A stretch of DNA of 22,543 bases, taken from a virus. The notes under the pieces were generated by a model. That model had not been told where the DNA came from. It made no database searches and was given only the letters and a program-made list of their open reading frames with translations. Location of the stretch: the IMG/VR virus record IMGVR_UViG_3300046777_002249, positions 1-22,543 of that record; one strand, 5' to 3'. Each line of letters starts with the position of its first letter. Positions within the stretch are counted from its first letter, which is position 1. A program made the translations under genes and the position numbers. Of this stretch, positions 3,916-11,251 are shown in pieces.

Positions 3916-3944
3916 TTGCCTGTTACCTGTCAAAATGCTAGAAT
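3916..3944 (+). promoter_or_regulatory. rep promoter with flanking repeats
   Basis: A -35 TTGCCT (3916-3921) and a -10 TAGAAT (3939-3944) are 17 bp apart, giving a short leader to ATG 3970. CCTGTYA occurs three times (3893, 3919 and 3926), and CAGGTA (3899-3904) with TACCTG (3924-3929) forms an inverted repeat across the -35. Rep_3 initiators commonly repress their own promoter through such partial operators, which is the likely role here. Confidence 0.6.
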
Positions 3945-3969
3945 TCCCCTTTATTTTAGAGAAAACCTC

Positions 3970-4773
3970 ATGAATCTTGTACAAAAGAATATGTCTGAAG
4001 TCGAAGTAGCTATAGCAAACACTATCTTGAATAGTTGTTTTGAACTCTCAGTCGTGGAGAGGAATACTATATTCCTGACCTTAGCAGAAATGAGTAGAAA
4101 AGGGAAAGTTAAGGAGGTGGATTATACAAAATGGTATTACATGGAGGCTTCAGAATATGCTTCCCTCAGAAATATTAAACCTAAACACGCCTATGAGGTC
4201 TTGAAAACAGAAACAGCTAGGTTGTTTGATAGGTATATTGTTGTGAAGTACCCTGGAAAGACAACTTTACATAAGATTAGGTGGGTTACGGAAATAAGGT
4301 TTAACGATGAGAGACATAGGGTGGAATTGAGATGGAGTCAAACTATTGTTGAGTTTATATCTGCCCTATCGAAAGACTTTACCCGTTTTAGGGTAGAGGA
4401 TATTGTGAAGATTGATTCAAAGTATACCGCGAGGTTGTATGATCTTCTTCTTCAGAGGAAATTTAAGGGGTTAAAGGGAAAGATAAGGGTTCCAGTGGAA
4501 TGGATTATAGAGCATTGGTCAGTAGCGGAAAGTTCAAGAGAGTATAAGTTTTTAAAAAGTAGGGTTCTCGTACCGGCTATAAAGGAGTTAAAGAATAAAG
4601 GACTCTGTAATGTGGAGTTAAAAGATACAGGGCCGGGGTTAAGGGTTAGTAGGTTTGTGGAAAATGTTGAGTTTACATATGAGTTCCCGGAAAAAGAGAA
4701 GGAAAAAGATAAAGATGTTGAGGGGTTTGAAATGTTTGAACCGGACTTTGGGAGTTTATCATGGGGAGAATAG
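3970..4773 (+). CDS. rep: Rep_3 family plasmid replication initiator
   Basis: At 267 residues this matches the length and signature of Rep_3 (RepB-type) initiators, which bind iterons and open the origin for theta replication. Two winged-helix domains are expected: WH1 at about residues 15-110 (N-terminal ILNSCFELSVVERNTIFLTLAEM, then a helix-turn-helix around EYASLRNIKPKHAYEVLK) and WH2 at about 120-220 with the diagnostic FTRFRVEDIVKIDSKYTARL (about 137-156), which usually reads FTKYRLEDV..M.S.YS.RLYELL in the family. Start 3970 lies downstream of the promoter; the longer frame from 3916 begins inside the -35 and is excluded. The ribosome site is weak (AGAG). Nearly all arginine codons are AGA or AGG, unlike the genes at 728-2723, suggesting a different origin. 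The gene overlaps the next by 13 bp. Confidence 0.9.
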   Translation: MNLVQKNMSEVEVAIANTILNSCFELSVVERNTIFLTLAEMSRKGKVKEVDYTKWYYMEASEYASLRNIKPKHAYEVLKTETARLFDRYIVVKYPGKTTLHKIRWVTEIRFNDERHRVELRWSQTIVEFISALSKDFTRFRVEDIVKIDSKYTARLYDLLLQRKFKGLKGKIRVPVEWIIEHWSVAESSREYKFLKSRVLVPAIKELKNKGLCNVELKDTGPGLRVSRFVENVEFTYEFPEKEKEKDKDVEGFEMFEPDFGSLSWGE

Positions 4774-5645: not shown

Positions 5646-8600
5646 TTATACTACCATTTGAGCTTGAATTTGAACCCAGGCTTGATAACCAGGAGCCACA
5701 GAGAATCGAATAGTTTCATTGAACCCATCGAAGAGTCTAACCCAATCCTTAGAAGAACCTTCTTGTTTCCTAACTCCCGCTACCATAACGGCTATAGCTT
5801 CATAACCTTGTGGAAGGATAAAGTCTAAGAAAGATACTTGAACGGAGTTATTAGTTGCTGAAGCTACAGAAGAAATATATCCAGTTGTGCTGGCAACATC
5901 GTTCAAAGTTGTGTTTGTGGTTATACCAGTACCAGAGATACGAGCACCCCTAACTGTAGTCTGTGCAGGAATAGAAAGTCCTGTTATAGAAGTTATAGCA
6001 GTATTTCCATTTGTAAGGTTAGCAGTAAAGCCTCCTACCCATTCAAATACAGAGAGTTGTGAGTTTACGTATGTTTGTTTTAGATTCTTCTCCGAAGGAA
6101 GCCTCTTTAAACCTATAGACGGGATAGAAATATCCACACCAGGGTTAGAGGTTATCCTAGAAGTAGCCTCAATAAACGATTTTACGTTTCCTTTAGCATA
6201 AGTACCTGCGGGAACGGTAATGGAACTTGTACGAATAAGACCATTGAACGTAGAATCGTATGTGTTAGACAGAACTTGGAGGTTATTATTAAACCCATCA
6301 TATGTTATGTCGTTTATAGTTTCTGCACTCGGCAAGGTTACTTGTGCTCCTGGAAGGAACATTTGTTTTTCTTGTAAGTACATCCAAATAGATTGCCCTA
6401 ATGTTGGTGCGTTACCCGAGAACTTTACCATTGTAATTGATCCAGGAAACGGAGCATCGAGAGTATAGCTATTACCAATAGTTAATGTAGCCAAACTATT
6501 GTTTAATGTTAATAGTGGGTTGCCCCGAGTTGTCGCTACTTCTAAACCATTTATACGAATAGATAACGTGCCATCAGTTGTATAAATAGTTTCTACTTTT
6601 ACCCAAGAATTATTATTGTAGGAGGAGCTAGTGGATACAGTACGCATTGTAGTGCCGTCGTAGGCGGTGGCGATAAAGTAACCAGTAACAGTTAACCCAA
6701 GTAAGACTTTTGGGCCGCTGGAATGTGTACGATCTATAATTGAAAACGGTACAACTTCTTGAACTGATACCGAGTCAACCACAACAGTTCCTGACGCAGT
6801 TGCCCCAATCCTGCAACTGGAATTTATACCAGCAGATTGGAGATAAAATGTATGCGTACCAACACCTAGCCCTGTTTTTGCATACCGTGCGTCTCCGCTA
6901 GTTGTCGTCCCGCAGTACGCAATCGCATTACTTCCAGACGATATAACAATCGTAAACTTAAACACTCTCCCAACTGTAGTTGGGAGAATATTCTGAGACA
7001 CAGAACTTCCGTTGGCAGTCAACGTGGCCTGACCGCCGGAAATGATCGCGTTTAGTTTTGTCCACGCGCTGTCGGTATCAAAACTTCCGTTAGTGAGTAG
7101 TTCCCCATATAAAGGGAGCATACTGTAGTCTGGTAAAGTCACCGGTACATTTACCCACGCCCCCACGTTCCACTCGCCTGTACCGAAATCCAAATCTGCG
7201 GAATATGTCTCTCTAATATAGTTATTATTAGACCATTCAGAGAACGCTACAAGTTGGGAACTAGGGGTTACAGACGCGCTTGTTAAAGTACCTGTAACAC
7301 TAGCACTGGCTCCTTTATAACTTCTATCATTTATAGTTCCAGTTATATTTCCAGAAGTAATGTCGGATAGATAACTTCTACGTATATCTCCAAACATCCA
7401 ACCTGTATTATAGGTGTTTGTGACCCTAGCCCCCAATCCCTTACCTATTGAAGAGGAATTGTTATAAGACAATAATAATAGATTTGCTCCTGTCCGAGCG
7501 TATTGAAAATTTCCCAAAGATATTAAGTTTTGAAGTGCCCCTGTTATAGCTATTTGTGGTGCTAAGGTAGAGGTAACTTGTGTTAAAGAACTAGCCGCTG
7601 TACCTCGAAGAGAAAGTGGATTATTTCCAAAATATAATGAAGAAGCATCTGTCCTGTTTGGAAACCATATAGCATCTTTTGTCAAAGTTACGCCCATACT
7701 TATAAACGCAACTGAAAAATACCATCTAGTACGGTCAGGCCAGAAAATTTGTACAAAACTTGAAGCTACCGCAACTGAAGGTATACGTAGACCGTTAGTA
7801 TCAATAGCTCCATCATTTAGAATACAAGGAGACGTTGCATAGATAGGGTTGTGAGTTAGAGGAGTTCCAGAGGTAGAAATTCTTTTATCTGTAGAAACAA
7901 TAGAAATACCATACTGAAGTTGTACAGTAGAAGAGTTTCTCCAAAGGATAGAATCTTCAGCCCAATTTATTTCAGCTAACCCTAAACTTCCACCTATCCA
8001 TAAACGAGCATTCAAAAAAGAAATTTGTTTAGGGTAGGCAGCACTAAAGGTTCCCCAAGGTATAGCACCAGTATTTACCAGACGTTTCCACATAGGGCGA
8101 CCTGGTTCGGTAAGATCATAGATTGTTACGTAGCTAACACTTCCCGAGGTTTCTCCGACAATAGCAGAAAGTTTAGGAAATGTGGCTTTATTTCCACGGA
8201 AAACTTCAATTGTTCCACTTGTGGAGTTTAGTTTGTAAAACTTTCCATCAGATGAAAGTTGAAAGTAATCATTAGTAGTAGCACTAGTAACAGCCCTTGC
8301 CGAAGATTCAGAAGGGTGTGCTCCCAACCATTTACCATTTAAACTTTCATTATACCAACTTGTATTCTGACAACGTTCTGTCCAAGCACCATTATCGCTA
8401 TCTAAAGATGTGTCGTATATAGCAATGCTAGTTACCTCATTAGGAGACCTATGTAATGCTTGAACAGAAACAGCAGAAATAGGGTCAACCCAAGAAGGGT
8501 CAATTTTTCCTGTAGAATCCGCTAAAGGAATCTTTCCAGGAGAAGAAATAAGACTTGCAGTTCCTCCAGTAACTACGGCAATGGCATTATCACTAGCTTG

Positions 8601-9353
8601 TTGGGCTACAAGAGAAGCGGCTATAGAGTTACCTGCCGCAGTACCAGAAACTACAGAAGAATTATAAGAGTTTGTTTCAGAAATAGAGGCTTTAGTCGCA
8701 TGATGTTTAGCTGAATATTCCAATCCATCCCCTTCCGGTACAGGAATATCTACAGTATAGTTTGCCCAATGTTCTGCCTCTAATGCGTCTGCCTCTACGG
8801 AAGAAAGATATGTTCCTGCTAAAATAGCGGAATCCGAAGCCTCTCCCGCCTTAGTTGTAGCTGTATTTGCAGCAGTTTCGGCAAGATTTTTATTATTTTC
8901 CGCAGTAGAAGCATAACCTTGAACAGTGGATTGAAGGGAAACTATGTTTTGTTCGATAGAAATAACATTATTTTCGATAAGTTCTGCGGAATTTTTAGCA
9001 TTTTCAGCAGAATTCTTATAGGATAAGGCAGAATTACTAGCAGATTCAGCCGAATTCTTATATCCTTCGGCTAAAGTTGCACTTTGACTAGAACTTTGAG
9101 CAAAAGATTCAGCAGAATTCTTAAAAGTTTCGGAAGAATTCTTATATCCTTCGGTTATAACCTCACTATTATGTGCATTTTGAGCACTTATAGAGGCTTC
9201 TCCCGCTTTATCTTCAGAAACTTCCGCAAAACCTTCAGCAGCATTCTTCGCGGCTACAGTTGCACTATATAAATCTTGCATTTCGGGAGTCATATCACCT
9301 ATAACAAGGTTATAGGTAGCTCCTTCATCCTCTACAATCAAATTATAACTCAT
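5646..9353 (-). CDS. Large tail fibre with coiled-coil, LamG-like and jelly-roll domains
   Basis: The protein has 1235 residues. Residues 1-25 form a short head. Residues about 30-265 are an Ala/Ser/Asn-rich helical stalk with near-repeats of YKNSAE, the style of lambda side-tail-fibre shafts. Residues about 280-690 contain W-rich beta text (WTERCQNTSWYNE, PMWKRLVNTG, GGSLGLAEINWAEDSILW) possibly forming a propeller-like body. Residues about 700-985 look like a LamG (concanavalin-like) lectin fold, FGTGEWNVGAWVN at the start and SWVKVETIYTTDGTLSIRING near the end, interrupted at about 751-868 by a carbohydrate-binding jelly-roll (LLTNGSFDTDSAWTK). The end (1106-1180) has a G-T-rich beta domain also seen in the tail tube. 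Role: host recognition. It overlaps the upstream gene by ATGA. Domain calls are by eye. Confidence 0.85.
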   Translation of the reverse strand: MSYNLIVEDEGATYNLVIGDMTPEMQDLYSATVAAKNAAEGFAEVSEDKAGEASISAQNAHNSEVITEGYKNSSETFKNSAESFAQSSSQSATLAEGYKNSAESASNSALSYKNSAENAKNSAELIENNVISIEQNIVSLQSTVQGYASTAENNKNLAETAANTATTKAGEASDSAILAGTYLSSVEADALEAEHWANYTVDIPVPEGDGLEYSAKHHATKASISETNSYNSSVVSGTAAGNSIAASLVAQQASDNAIAVVTGGTASLISSPGKIPLADSTGKIDPSWVDPISAVSVQALHRSPNEVTSIAIYDTSLDSDNGAWTERCQNTSWYNESLNGKWLGAHPSESSARAVTSATTNDYFQLSSDGKFYKLNSTSGTIEVFRGNKATFPKLSAIVGETSGSVSYVTIYDLTEPGRPMWKRLVNTGAIPWGTFSAAYPKQISFLNARLWIGGSLGLAEINWAEDSILWRNSSTVQLQYGISIVSTDKRISTSGTPLTHNPIYATSPCILNDGAIDTNGLRIPSVAVASSFVQIFWPDRTRWYFSVAFISMGVTLTKDAIWFPNRTDASSLYFGNNPLSLRGTAASSLTQVTSTLAPQIAITGALQNLISLGNFQYARTGANLLLLSYNNSSSIGKGLGARVTNTYNTGWMFGDIRRSYLSDITSGNITGTINDRSYKGASASVTGTLTSASVTPSSQLVAFSEWSNNNYIRETYSADLDFGTGEWNVGAWVNVPVTLPDYSMLPLYGELLTNGSFDTDSAWTKLNAIISGGQATLTANGSSVSQNILPTTVGRVFKFTIVISSGSNAIAYCGTTTSGDARYAKTGLGVGTHTFYLQSAGINSSCRIGATASGTVVVDSVSVQEVVPFSIIDRTHSSGPKVLLGLTVTGYFIATAYDGTTMRTVSTSSSYNNNSWVKVETIYTTDGTLSIRINGLEVATTRGNPLLTLNNSLATLTIGNSYTLDAPFPGSITMVKFSGNAPTLGQSIWMYLQEKQMFLPGAQVTLPSAETINDITYDGFNNNLQVLSNTYDSTFNGLIRTSSITVPAGTYAKGNVKSFIEATSRITSNPGVDISIPSIGLKRLPSEKNLKQTYVNSQLSVFEWVGGFTANLTNGNTAITSITGLSIPAQTTVRGARISGTGITTNTTLNDVASTTGYISSVASATNNSVQVSFLDFILPQGYEAIAVMVAGVRKQEGSSKDWVRLFDGFNETIRFSVAPGYQAWVQIQAQMVV
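6660..7200 (-). other. GC-rich patch inside the tail fibre gene
   Basis: By direct count, 60-base lines here reach about 47-57% GC, whereas sampled lines on either side (6541, 7201 and 7441) are about 28-35%. The patch covers the jelly-roll segment (6750-7103) and the adjoining parts of the LamG-like domain. A perfect 22-bp palindrome, TCTCCCAACT-GT-AGTTGGGAGA, lies at 6966-6987. It looks like a recently acquired segment. Confidence 0.6.
9000..9154 (-). repeat. Degenerate repeats encoding the fibre stalk
   Basis: The 19-base text GAATTCTTATATCCTTCGG occurs at 9052-9070 and 9136-9154, 84 bp (28 codons) apart, with further partial GAATTCTTA copies between and beside them. They encode the (EG)YKNSAE-type stalk units and probably arose by local duplication. 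Confidence 0.6.
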
Positions 9354-9721: not shown

Positions 9722-11251
9722 TTATATAACTTCTACAGATTCAAGTGCGGCTACCCATCGAATTGTATCAGTAGAGGTTCCTGTGACAGTTATATCAAAT
9801 GTTTTAGCCGTATTGTCGATAGTACAAGCTATGGACCAAGAATTAGCTTCATTATCTCCGTGGGTTTTTGTCACTGTAGGACTACCTACTAGACGCATAG
9901 TTCCTGCTACGGAGTCATTTGTCACAACTGCTTCAATAGTCCACCCACTACACTTTCCAGCACTAGAACCGGAAGTTCCTTTTGCTATGACACTTCCTTT
10001 TATAATAGAAACTTGGCCGAAATCTAACTTAATTCTATTTGTAGAACCTATAGTTAAACCATTTGTGGTTAAAATGGTAGGTGTAGTTGTGTTAGTAGTA
10101 AGACCAGATAAAGGATAAAAGCCTTTCTGAGCTTCGCCCCTAGTATTTGAGAAAGGTGCTCCACCAGAAACAGCACCCATACCAGTTATACCTCTAGTTG
10201 TGGCTTGTTTACCTCCTGGAATCCAACTATTTTCTCCAGAACTGTGGTTTGAATAACCAGAGCCTACAAAGGAATAAGACCCTGCACAGTTATTAGCATA
10301 ACCAGCACCTATAAAAGAAGCAAATCCAGTAGCCGAGTTTAATTGTCCTGAAACTATAGCACTGTTCCCACCTATGCTAACAGTATTAGACTCTCCACAA
10401 AGAATCGCACTATAAGTAGATGCTACACTATTAGAGAGTCCAGAACCGATAATACTGGAACCTCCAGAGATACTGTTAGAGGAACCACTACCTATAAAAC
10501 AATTAGGATTAAAAATTGAGTTACTTTGACCCGAACCTATAGATGATTCAGTACCACCAGAGGAAATAGTATTATGACTGCCTGATAAAATAGACGATCT
10601 AGCCCCTCCTGCAACTTTAGTTGGGGAATTTCGTGTAGTTTGGAAATCTATTGAGCCCCTACCCCTTTTGTTTCCTCCACTATTTGCACTATCAGGGGTT
10701 TGTAAAGAGAAGGAACCTATACCTGTAGACCCATTTTTTGGAGCTAAAACAATATCAACTCCGTCTGTATCTGTAGATGTAGGAGTTAAGACTGCTACAG
10801 GTATTTGAGTATTGGGAGAAGCCGAAACTAAAGTACCATCCCAACCTACCGCAGAAGAACTTGTAAAACTAGCGTTTAAGACGCCACCCGTAATAGAGAG
10901 GTTTGTACCTATTGCTATAGGTCCTGCGGGATTAGAACCTTCTTGGTAATTCCCCAATAAACCTATAGAGTTCATAGTGGTAGAACCACCAAAACTAATA
11001 GTGGTAAATTCCGAAACCCCATCCCACTTTCTTGCAGTCCCATCAGGATCAGTCATAACTATAACAAGTTGCCCTGTAGGCCATACAGGAGAACCATTCG
11101 CTATATTTCCAAGTTCAACTTGAACCCAATCAGATAAATCAGTATCAGAAGGACAAAGGAGAAAAACTCCTGAAACCTTATTAACTTCGTCCGCTCGGAT
11201 AAGCGGAATGTAATCTTGTGTAGTTCCTAACGGACTCGAAACATTAGGCAT
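9722..11251 (-). CDS. Tail fibre/spike with Hep_Hag-type beta-roll repeats
   Basis: The protein has 509 residues. The N-terminal part (1-95) is a short attachment domain; VFLLCPSDTDLSDWVQVELG and TGQLVIVMTDPDGTARKWDG recall phage tail-tip adapters. Residues about 219-352 contain nine 14-16-residue repeats of the type S.IGSG.SN......, matching the YadA-head/Hep_Hag left-handed beta-roll found in trimeric adhesins and phage spikes. Residues 378-509 (PLSGLTTNTTT...IRWVAALESVEV) form a conserved-looking C-terminal beta domain that follows such rolls in many phage structural proteins. It is separated from the tail tube by a terminator (11266-11294) and has a weak AAGAGA ribosome site, so it is probably expressed less than the tube. 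Expected role: receptor binding as a trimer. Confidence 0.85.
   Translation of the reverse strand: MPNVSSPLGTTQDYIPLIRADEVNKVSGVFLLCPSDTDLSDWVQVELGNIANGSPVWPTGQLVIVMTDPDGTARKWDGVSEFTTISFGGSTTMNSIGLLGNYQEGSNPAGPIAIGTNLSITGGVLNASFTSSSAVGWDGTLVSASPNTQIPVAVLTPTSTDTDGVDIVLAPKNGSTGIGSFSLQTPDSANSGGNKRGRGSIDFQTTRNSPTKVAGGARSSILSGSHNTISSGGTESSIGSGQSNSIFNPNCFIGSGSSNSISGGSSIIGSGLSNSVASTYSAILCGESNTVSIGGNSAIVSGQLNSATGFASFIGAGYANNCAGSYSFVGSGYSNHSSGENSWIPGGKQATTRGITGMGAVSGGAPFSNTRGEAQKGFYPLSGLTTNTTTPTILTTNGLTIGSTNRIKLDFGQVSIIKGSVIAKGTSGSSAGKCSGWTIEAVVTNDSVAGTMRLVGSPTVTKTHGDNEANSWSIACTIDNTAKTFDITVTGTSTDTIRWVAALESVEVI

Follow-up and report, generated by a model that had tools for sequence, protein, structure and literature searches.

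The insertion of carbohydrate-binding modules (CBMs) into phage adhesins and the shuffling of domains among such proteins are already known. In the "evolved Dit" of lactococcal and lactobacillus siphophages, a CBM is inserted in the galectin domain of Dit, and a role in host binding has been reported (PMC6669499, PMC9692632). Receptor-binding proteins show domain mosaicism, with unrelated virion proteins sharing recently exchanged domains (Smug et al. 2023, PMC10684548). In T-even phages, conserved motifs are described as the sites between which recombination swaps the distal tail fibre/gp38 adhesins (Tetart et al. 1998, as cited in PMC3797505), and in coliphage tailspikes, motifs have been proposed at the recombination hotspots of the receptor-binding protein (PMC10408124).

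The locus considered here lies in a stretch of 22,543 nucleotides (the window), which is the IMG/VR virus record IMGVR_UViG_3300046777_002249, and encodes a tail fibre referred to below as Q. A segment nested in the LamG domain of this podovirus-like fibre is very probably an exchangeable jelly-roll module of carbohydrate-binding type (J1), sitting in one socket (slot C) of a scaffold that offers at least four (A to D, two of them inside LamG), and in which modules are exchanged as whole units. The features are collected in Table 1.

The tail fibre gene and its surroundings

The product of the fibre gene gives a weak tail-fibre match in PHROG, and the T7 gp17 chain is also matched weakly. Degenerate 21-nt repeats (window 8982-9266) encode an N-terminal repeat of NSAE/ESF type in the fibre, which is probably a coiled coil. 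A 509-aa protein of the structural region (window 9722-11251, minus strand) has as its sole match a weak one to a beta-roll (LbR_Ice_bind). Beside the phage structural genes lies a plasmid-type replication initiator of the Rep3 family (PF01051, E 5e-23; window 3916-4773, plus strand), and given this neighbourhood, the virus may be a phage-plasmid.

Table 1. Positions of the fibre gene, its LamG parts, slots and compositional segment in the window
Feature	Position	Strand	Observation
Tail fibre gene (P0001), 1235 aa	5646..9353	-	open frame; homologues in 101 other fibres
Slot A, empty in Q, between residues 353 and 365	8262..8294	-	one or two modules in 19/89 fibres with both sides present
Slot B, empty in Q, between residues 670 and 676	7329..7343	-	filled in 76/84 fibres with both sides present
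LamG N-terminal part, residues 676-744	7122..7328	-	aligns with the uninterrupted LamG of L012, L021 and L102; Laminin_G_3 profile from 10 when joined
Slot C insert, residues ~745-871: J1 jelly-roll module (749-869) and short linkers	6741..7121	-	absent at the same point in L012, L021 and L102; CBM hits; GC3 z 4.7
LamG C-terminal part, residues 872-990	6384..6740	-	Laminin_G_3, 44.4 bits against a cutoff of 27.6
Slot D, empty in Q, second position inside LamG, ~ residues 946-950, after RGNPLL	6504..6515	-	J2 in six relatives, e.g. L047, L049, L061, L053, L112
Raised-GC3 segment, residues 692-912	6618..7280	-	change-point scan

A carbohydrate-binding-type module nested in LamG

On native Q, the Laminin_G_3 profile (PF13385) is matched over positions 37-145 only, with a score above the curated cutoff, while removal of residues 745-871 makes the match continuous over positions 10-145 and raises it to 51.1 bits. 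Q thus carries a Laminin_G_3 domain that is unbroken once the insert is omitted, and the insert-free relatives L012 and L021 match the profile over 4-149 and 9-149, respectively. AlphaFold models consist of beta-sandwich folds, both for residues 672-995 (mean pLDDT 79) and for the insert alone (pLDDT 88, one beta-sandwich). Searched with Foldseek, the model of the insert matches solved CBMs (E 6e-6 to 6e-5, query-normalised TM 0.65-0.75), namely a porphyran-binding CBM (8xmz), a hyaluronan-binding module (4d0q), two CBM4 structures (1gui and 2y6j) and a CBM16 (2zex), and J1 therefore has, by structural match, the beta-sandwich fold of CBM type. The phage tailspikes 5w6h and 8iq9 are matched as well. 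The earlier note had claimed that a jelly-roll interrupts a LamG-like fold and had proposed structure prediction as a check; on both the profile and the models, this claim holds. With Foldseek, the whole model also matches (clostridial) toxin binding domains, and J1 alone matches Cry-type domains; both sets of matches were set aside as shared lectin-like folds and not kinship.

At the level of sequence families, the J1 of Q matches no Pfam family at E values up to 0.1, including CBM_4_9 (PF02018) and related CBMs. CBM_4_9 is weakly matched by 4 of 63 J1 modules and BppA domain 1 (PF22637) by one (1.4e-5), and in the LamG region of L061, CBM_4_9 is found above cutoff at the filler of slot D. 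The predicted CBM fold and the class of protein in which it stands suggest that the J1 of Q is a carbohydrate-binding-type module that would bind a sugar, possibly a host glycan, and that it could affect host range through a changed range of adsorption.

A family of fibres with fixed sockets

Scans of viral contigs and GTDB genomes yielded 102 distinct fibres, including Q, that share conserved scaffold segments S1 to S5. Four sockets are defined on this scaffold, slot A between S1 and S2, slot B between S2 and S3, slot C between S3 and S4, and slot D inside S4, after RGNPLL. Each is either empty or occupied by whole jelly-roll modules of about 120-150 aa, single or in series, the fillers being mainly of two types, J1 (ELVTNGxF...DNxSVxEV) and J2 (NLLxxSExF...GNGWYRC...WGAQLE). 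Accordingly, the lengths between scaffold segments are quantised: across up to 102 fibres, the interval at slot B measures -1 to 9, 119-149 or 258-265 aa, and that at slot C 20-44, 145-220 or 514 aa. Among fibres in which both sides of the slot are present, 23 of 79 have a filled slot C and 6 of 78 a filled slot D; Q has slot C filled only. Differing module types (J1, J2, or serial sets) are found in slot C across the family, and despite these differing modules, most filled members have in common a linker before (PxTLPxxSFPxxG) and a linker after (GPxxIxDRAYSSGP).

The bacterial genomes that hold relatives of the fibre are Proteobacteria. Against named phages, tblastn searches with the fibre, with its LamG/J1 part or with the J1 of Q alone returned no match, the only modules found there being those of the relative L061. 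A six-member J1 alignment proved too divergent as a scan query, and a further scan with the C-terminal tail returned mostly contigs already in the set, none of them closer to Q by identity. Outside the family, several virion proteins (L153, L146, L198, L191, L192 and L195) have five to seven J1/J2 modules in series, and in this external set, 70 of 172 neighbouring module pairs are separated by almost no spacer. The middle of S2 (around residues 420-620 in the window fibre; nt 2384-2663 of the L047 fibre gene, with the matching part of L049) is unalignable between fibres whose S2 ends are more than 85% identical, and forms another variable block.

Base composition of the module

The GC content is 46.7% in the insert, 44.4% in the N-terminal and 40.1% in the C-terminal part of LamG, and 38.8% and 39.6% in the rest of the fibre. 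The raised GC reported in the earlier note is therefore real for the insert, which stands against about 39%, but its size was overstated, as the 28-35% given for the outside came from picked lines. Scored against the codon use of the fibre itself, with correction for amino acids, the module alone has a GC3 of 0.39 for an expected 0.21 (z 4.7). Similar departures are frequent in the family: 43% of J1 and 43% of J2 modules lie more than 3 SD off the codon use of their own fibre, and the same threshold is exceeded by 0, 5, 6, 7 and 4% of the scaffold segments S1 to S5, respectively. High-GC fibres tend to have modules whose GC3 is too low, while that of Q is too high. The J1 of Q is compositionally foreign to its fibre.

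Did the module arrive alone, or together with the LamG domain around it? In a change-point scan, the segment of highest anomaly in Q reaches z 6.66, beyond the maximum of 5.83 among 500 simulated genes, so that the codon-use check proposed by the earlier note does return an anomaly, one that is wider than the insert: the best-likelihood segment spans residues 692-912 (left edge 681-729, right edge 900-920) and exceeds the insert on both sides. Because the GC3 anomaly spreads into LamG, the tract imported into Q may exceed the module, and a tract slightly larger than it is possible. A stronger version of this reading, in which homologous recombination brought in LamG together with its nested J1 from a relative of higher GC, with no separate exchange of the module in this lineage, draws on the same change points outside the insert, on the better fit of a one-level model over 692-912 than over the insert alone, and on the GC of 0.59-0.67 of several relatives with the nested state. 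It nevertheless seems rather unlikely, given that z reaches just 1.6 and 1.9 in the LamG flanks, a mild rise next to the value of the module, that the raised GC3 of S3 in Q is on the trend of the fibre family, and that the module of Q does not resemble the modules found in the relatives of higher GC.

Turnover at slot C

In a LamG tree (short search, without bootstrap), a single clade of 28 (support 98) contains every one of the 23 fibres with slot C filled, along with 5 empty members, and the filled and empty states at slot C require 6 changes. The sister of Q in this tree, L021, is empty at slot C (support 91, from the same short search), and sisters of which one is filled and the other empty are met again in L010/L102 and L012/L109. 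The comparison of homologues with and without the segment, which the earlier note had called for, thus finds both states at one and the same point. Among filled sisters, the content differs: the modules in slot C are 38% identical in L047/L049, 36% in L037/L112 and 35% in L088/L091, for LamG identities of 92%, 90% and 87%, respectively. The LamG flanks of Q are 56-67% identical to those of its nearest relatives, and its C module is 12-29% identical to the slot C content of relatives when identity is taken from the A5 alignment, or 23-39% when the sequences are aligned two by two. The best matches of this module (37-40%) are J1 modules in unrelated virion proteins; a transfer from slot A of its sister was considered and found unsupported, these best matches lying outside the family.

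As 23 fibres of the clade of 28 fill the socket with mutually dissimilar modules while 5 leave it empty, and as modules of the same kinds are found at the three other sockets, the event is a turnover of module content at a shared socket. The domain-in-domain acquisition put forward in the earlier note is thus upheld as regards a foreign nested module that some relatives lack, whereas the socket itself is not new to this phage. What Q has in this old socket is a putative binding module obtained by horizontal exchange, so that its nested domain is no single invention of this phage. Its own swap is not directly caught, because the collections searched yielded no DNA-level donor of the module, the best match being at about 40% aa identity.

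The unit of exchange and its junctions

Module comparisons were retained when both DNA flanks were at least 78% identical and no such match spanned the module. In the 65 comparisons obtained, many of which share lineages and are thus not independent, the junctions fall just inside the module, at a median of +19 nt from its 5' end and -14 nt from its 3' end, 87% of them within 45 nt, with the conserved module ends drawing the BLAST alignments slightly into the module. A single pair of fibres may differ at several sockets, as between L047 and L049, whose modules differ with junctions at the ends in slots A (two modules), B and C, the filler of D being shared. Modules also cross sockets: the one in slot B of L049 is 73% identical in nucleotides, over 359 nt, to the one that L063 has in slot A. 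Outside the family, L198 and L189 share a module that is 97.4% identical over 350 nt and bounded +3/-1 nt from the module ends, within unrelated flanks (35% and 23% identical), and modules are shared in the same manner, at 83-89% nucleotide identity, in L135/L126, L130/L156 and L146/L163.

These data also bear on whether J1 could be a portion of the domain that is passed on vertically and evolves fast, its low identity in slot C reflecting divergence and not exchange. The J1 modules of slot C do share a fold-level family and a weak sequence similarity, as such descent would have it, but this account is very improbable: one slot holds J1, J2 and serial sets, identity between sister fibres drops from 87-92% to 35-38% at the module ends, module composition departs from that of the fibre, and the near-identical module of L198/L189 between unrelated flanks contradicts it.

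Could the mosaics instead be due to metagenome assembly joining contigs at the conserved ends of J1? Most loci are metagenome contigs, and conservation at the module ends is strong enough for assemblers to be misled. An artefact is hardly credible, however, as the slots are always in the same four places, as the composition of Q shows the effect without any comparison, and as filled and empty versions of slot B occur in an isolate, Pararhodobacter aggregans D1-19. In this strain, two related fibre loci are found on different contigs, slot B being filled in one (L117, 385 nt) and empty in the other (L118, 16 nt). Both loci are presumably prophages, judging from their fibre genes, and they provide a natural filled/empty pair in one strain.

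How modules may be exchanged

Among relatives, modules are replaced, lost or gained as complete units, with junctions at their own ends. The simplest route would be homologous recombination anchored either in the scaffold on both sides or in the short conserved motifs at the module ends (ELVTNGxF ... DNxSVxEV), and recombination anchored in this way would leave the slot edges in place. As for the T-even type of exchange, conserved motifs are found at the exchange points, and the junctions lie at the module ends. Within the family, J1 modules share synonymous codons in excess at their two ends alone (mean z 5.0 at one and 5.7 at the other, with 0.09 in the interior; p 2.5e-7), a pattern that agrees with anchoring at the ends. 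A weaker form of it persists when different slots are compared, or the family with unrelated proteins; the bootstrap 95% intervals of ends minus interior are 0.08-0.28 for slots A-B, 0.02-0.23 for C-B and 0.10-0.21 for family-external comparisons. Because the inherited scaffold segments show a synonymous excess of the same order, that of the J1 ends may partly reflect descent of the slot edges. The 5' module end of Q itself lacks the end codons preferred in the family.

End-precise exchange, together with a synonymous excess that is confined to the ends and common to different slots and unrelated proteins, would also be expected if a dedicated mechanism, such as a phage recombinase or a diversity-generating element, moved the modules. 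Such a mechanism is improbable, since no template repeat is present near the variable segment within the window (a DGR was set aside on this ground), no target-site duplication is seen in the filled/empty pairs, and the data are equally explained by ordinary recombination where the ends are conserved. End-anchored homologous recombination likely drives the exchange. More tentatively, and with some doubt, J1 and J2 might constitute a shared mobile pool of domain cassettes whose DNA ends are maintained for recombination, and from which many unrelated phages draw adhesion modules into standard sockets.

Comparison with known systems

Exchange at sockets could let phages change what they adhere to in single steps. 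Given sockets and an exchange unit that are both well delimited, an isolate that shows the filled as well as the empty state, and ends that are testable as anchors, the shuffling of adhesin domains becomes measurable. A word of caution also follows: where one domain is nested in another in a single phage fibre, the inner one may be what a long-standing socket happens to contain at present, without being newly invented.

Like evolved Dit, Q is a phage adhesion protein in which a CBM-type domain interrupts a second beta-sandwich domain, and in both cases some phages have the insert and others lack it. It does not belong to that group, being a tail fibre whose host domain is Laminin_G_3 (LamG/ConA-like) and not a Dit with its galectin domain, and its family differs further by at least four sockets, two of them inside one LamG, by interchangeable modules and by end-precise junctions. 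Relative to the mosaicism described by Smug et al. (2023), the unit, its ends, the sockets and their filled and empty states are resolved here within one fibre family. As in the T-even adhesins, in the account cited above, short conserved motifs flank variable specificity segments; unlike what that account describes, the family of Q exchanges an entire CBM-type module, which folds independently and is also found beyond the fibre family. In coliphage tailspikes, conserved motifs likewise adjoin exchangeable receptor-binding domains, but it is the C-terminal receptor-binding domain that is exchanged, whereas the family of Q uses several internal sockets. What this locus adds to the known systems is thus a set of fixed sockets in one fibre, two of them inside one LamG, with quantised filling, exchange of whole modules with junctions at the module ends, and a pool of modules shared with unrelated virion proteins; multi-socket, end-precise exchange inside a LamG domain is a new form of these known processes.
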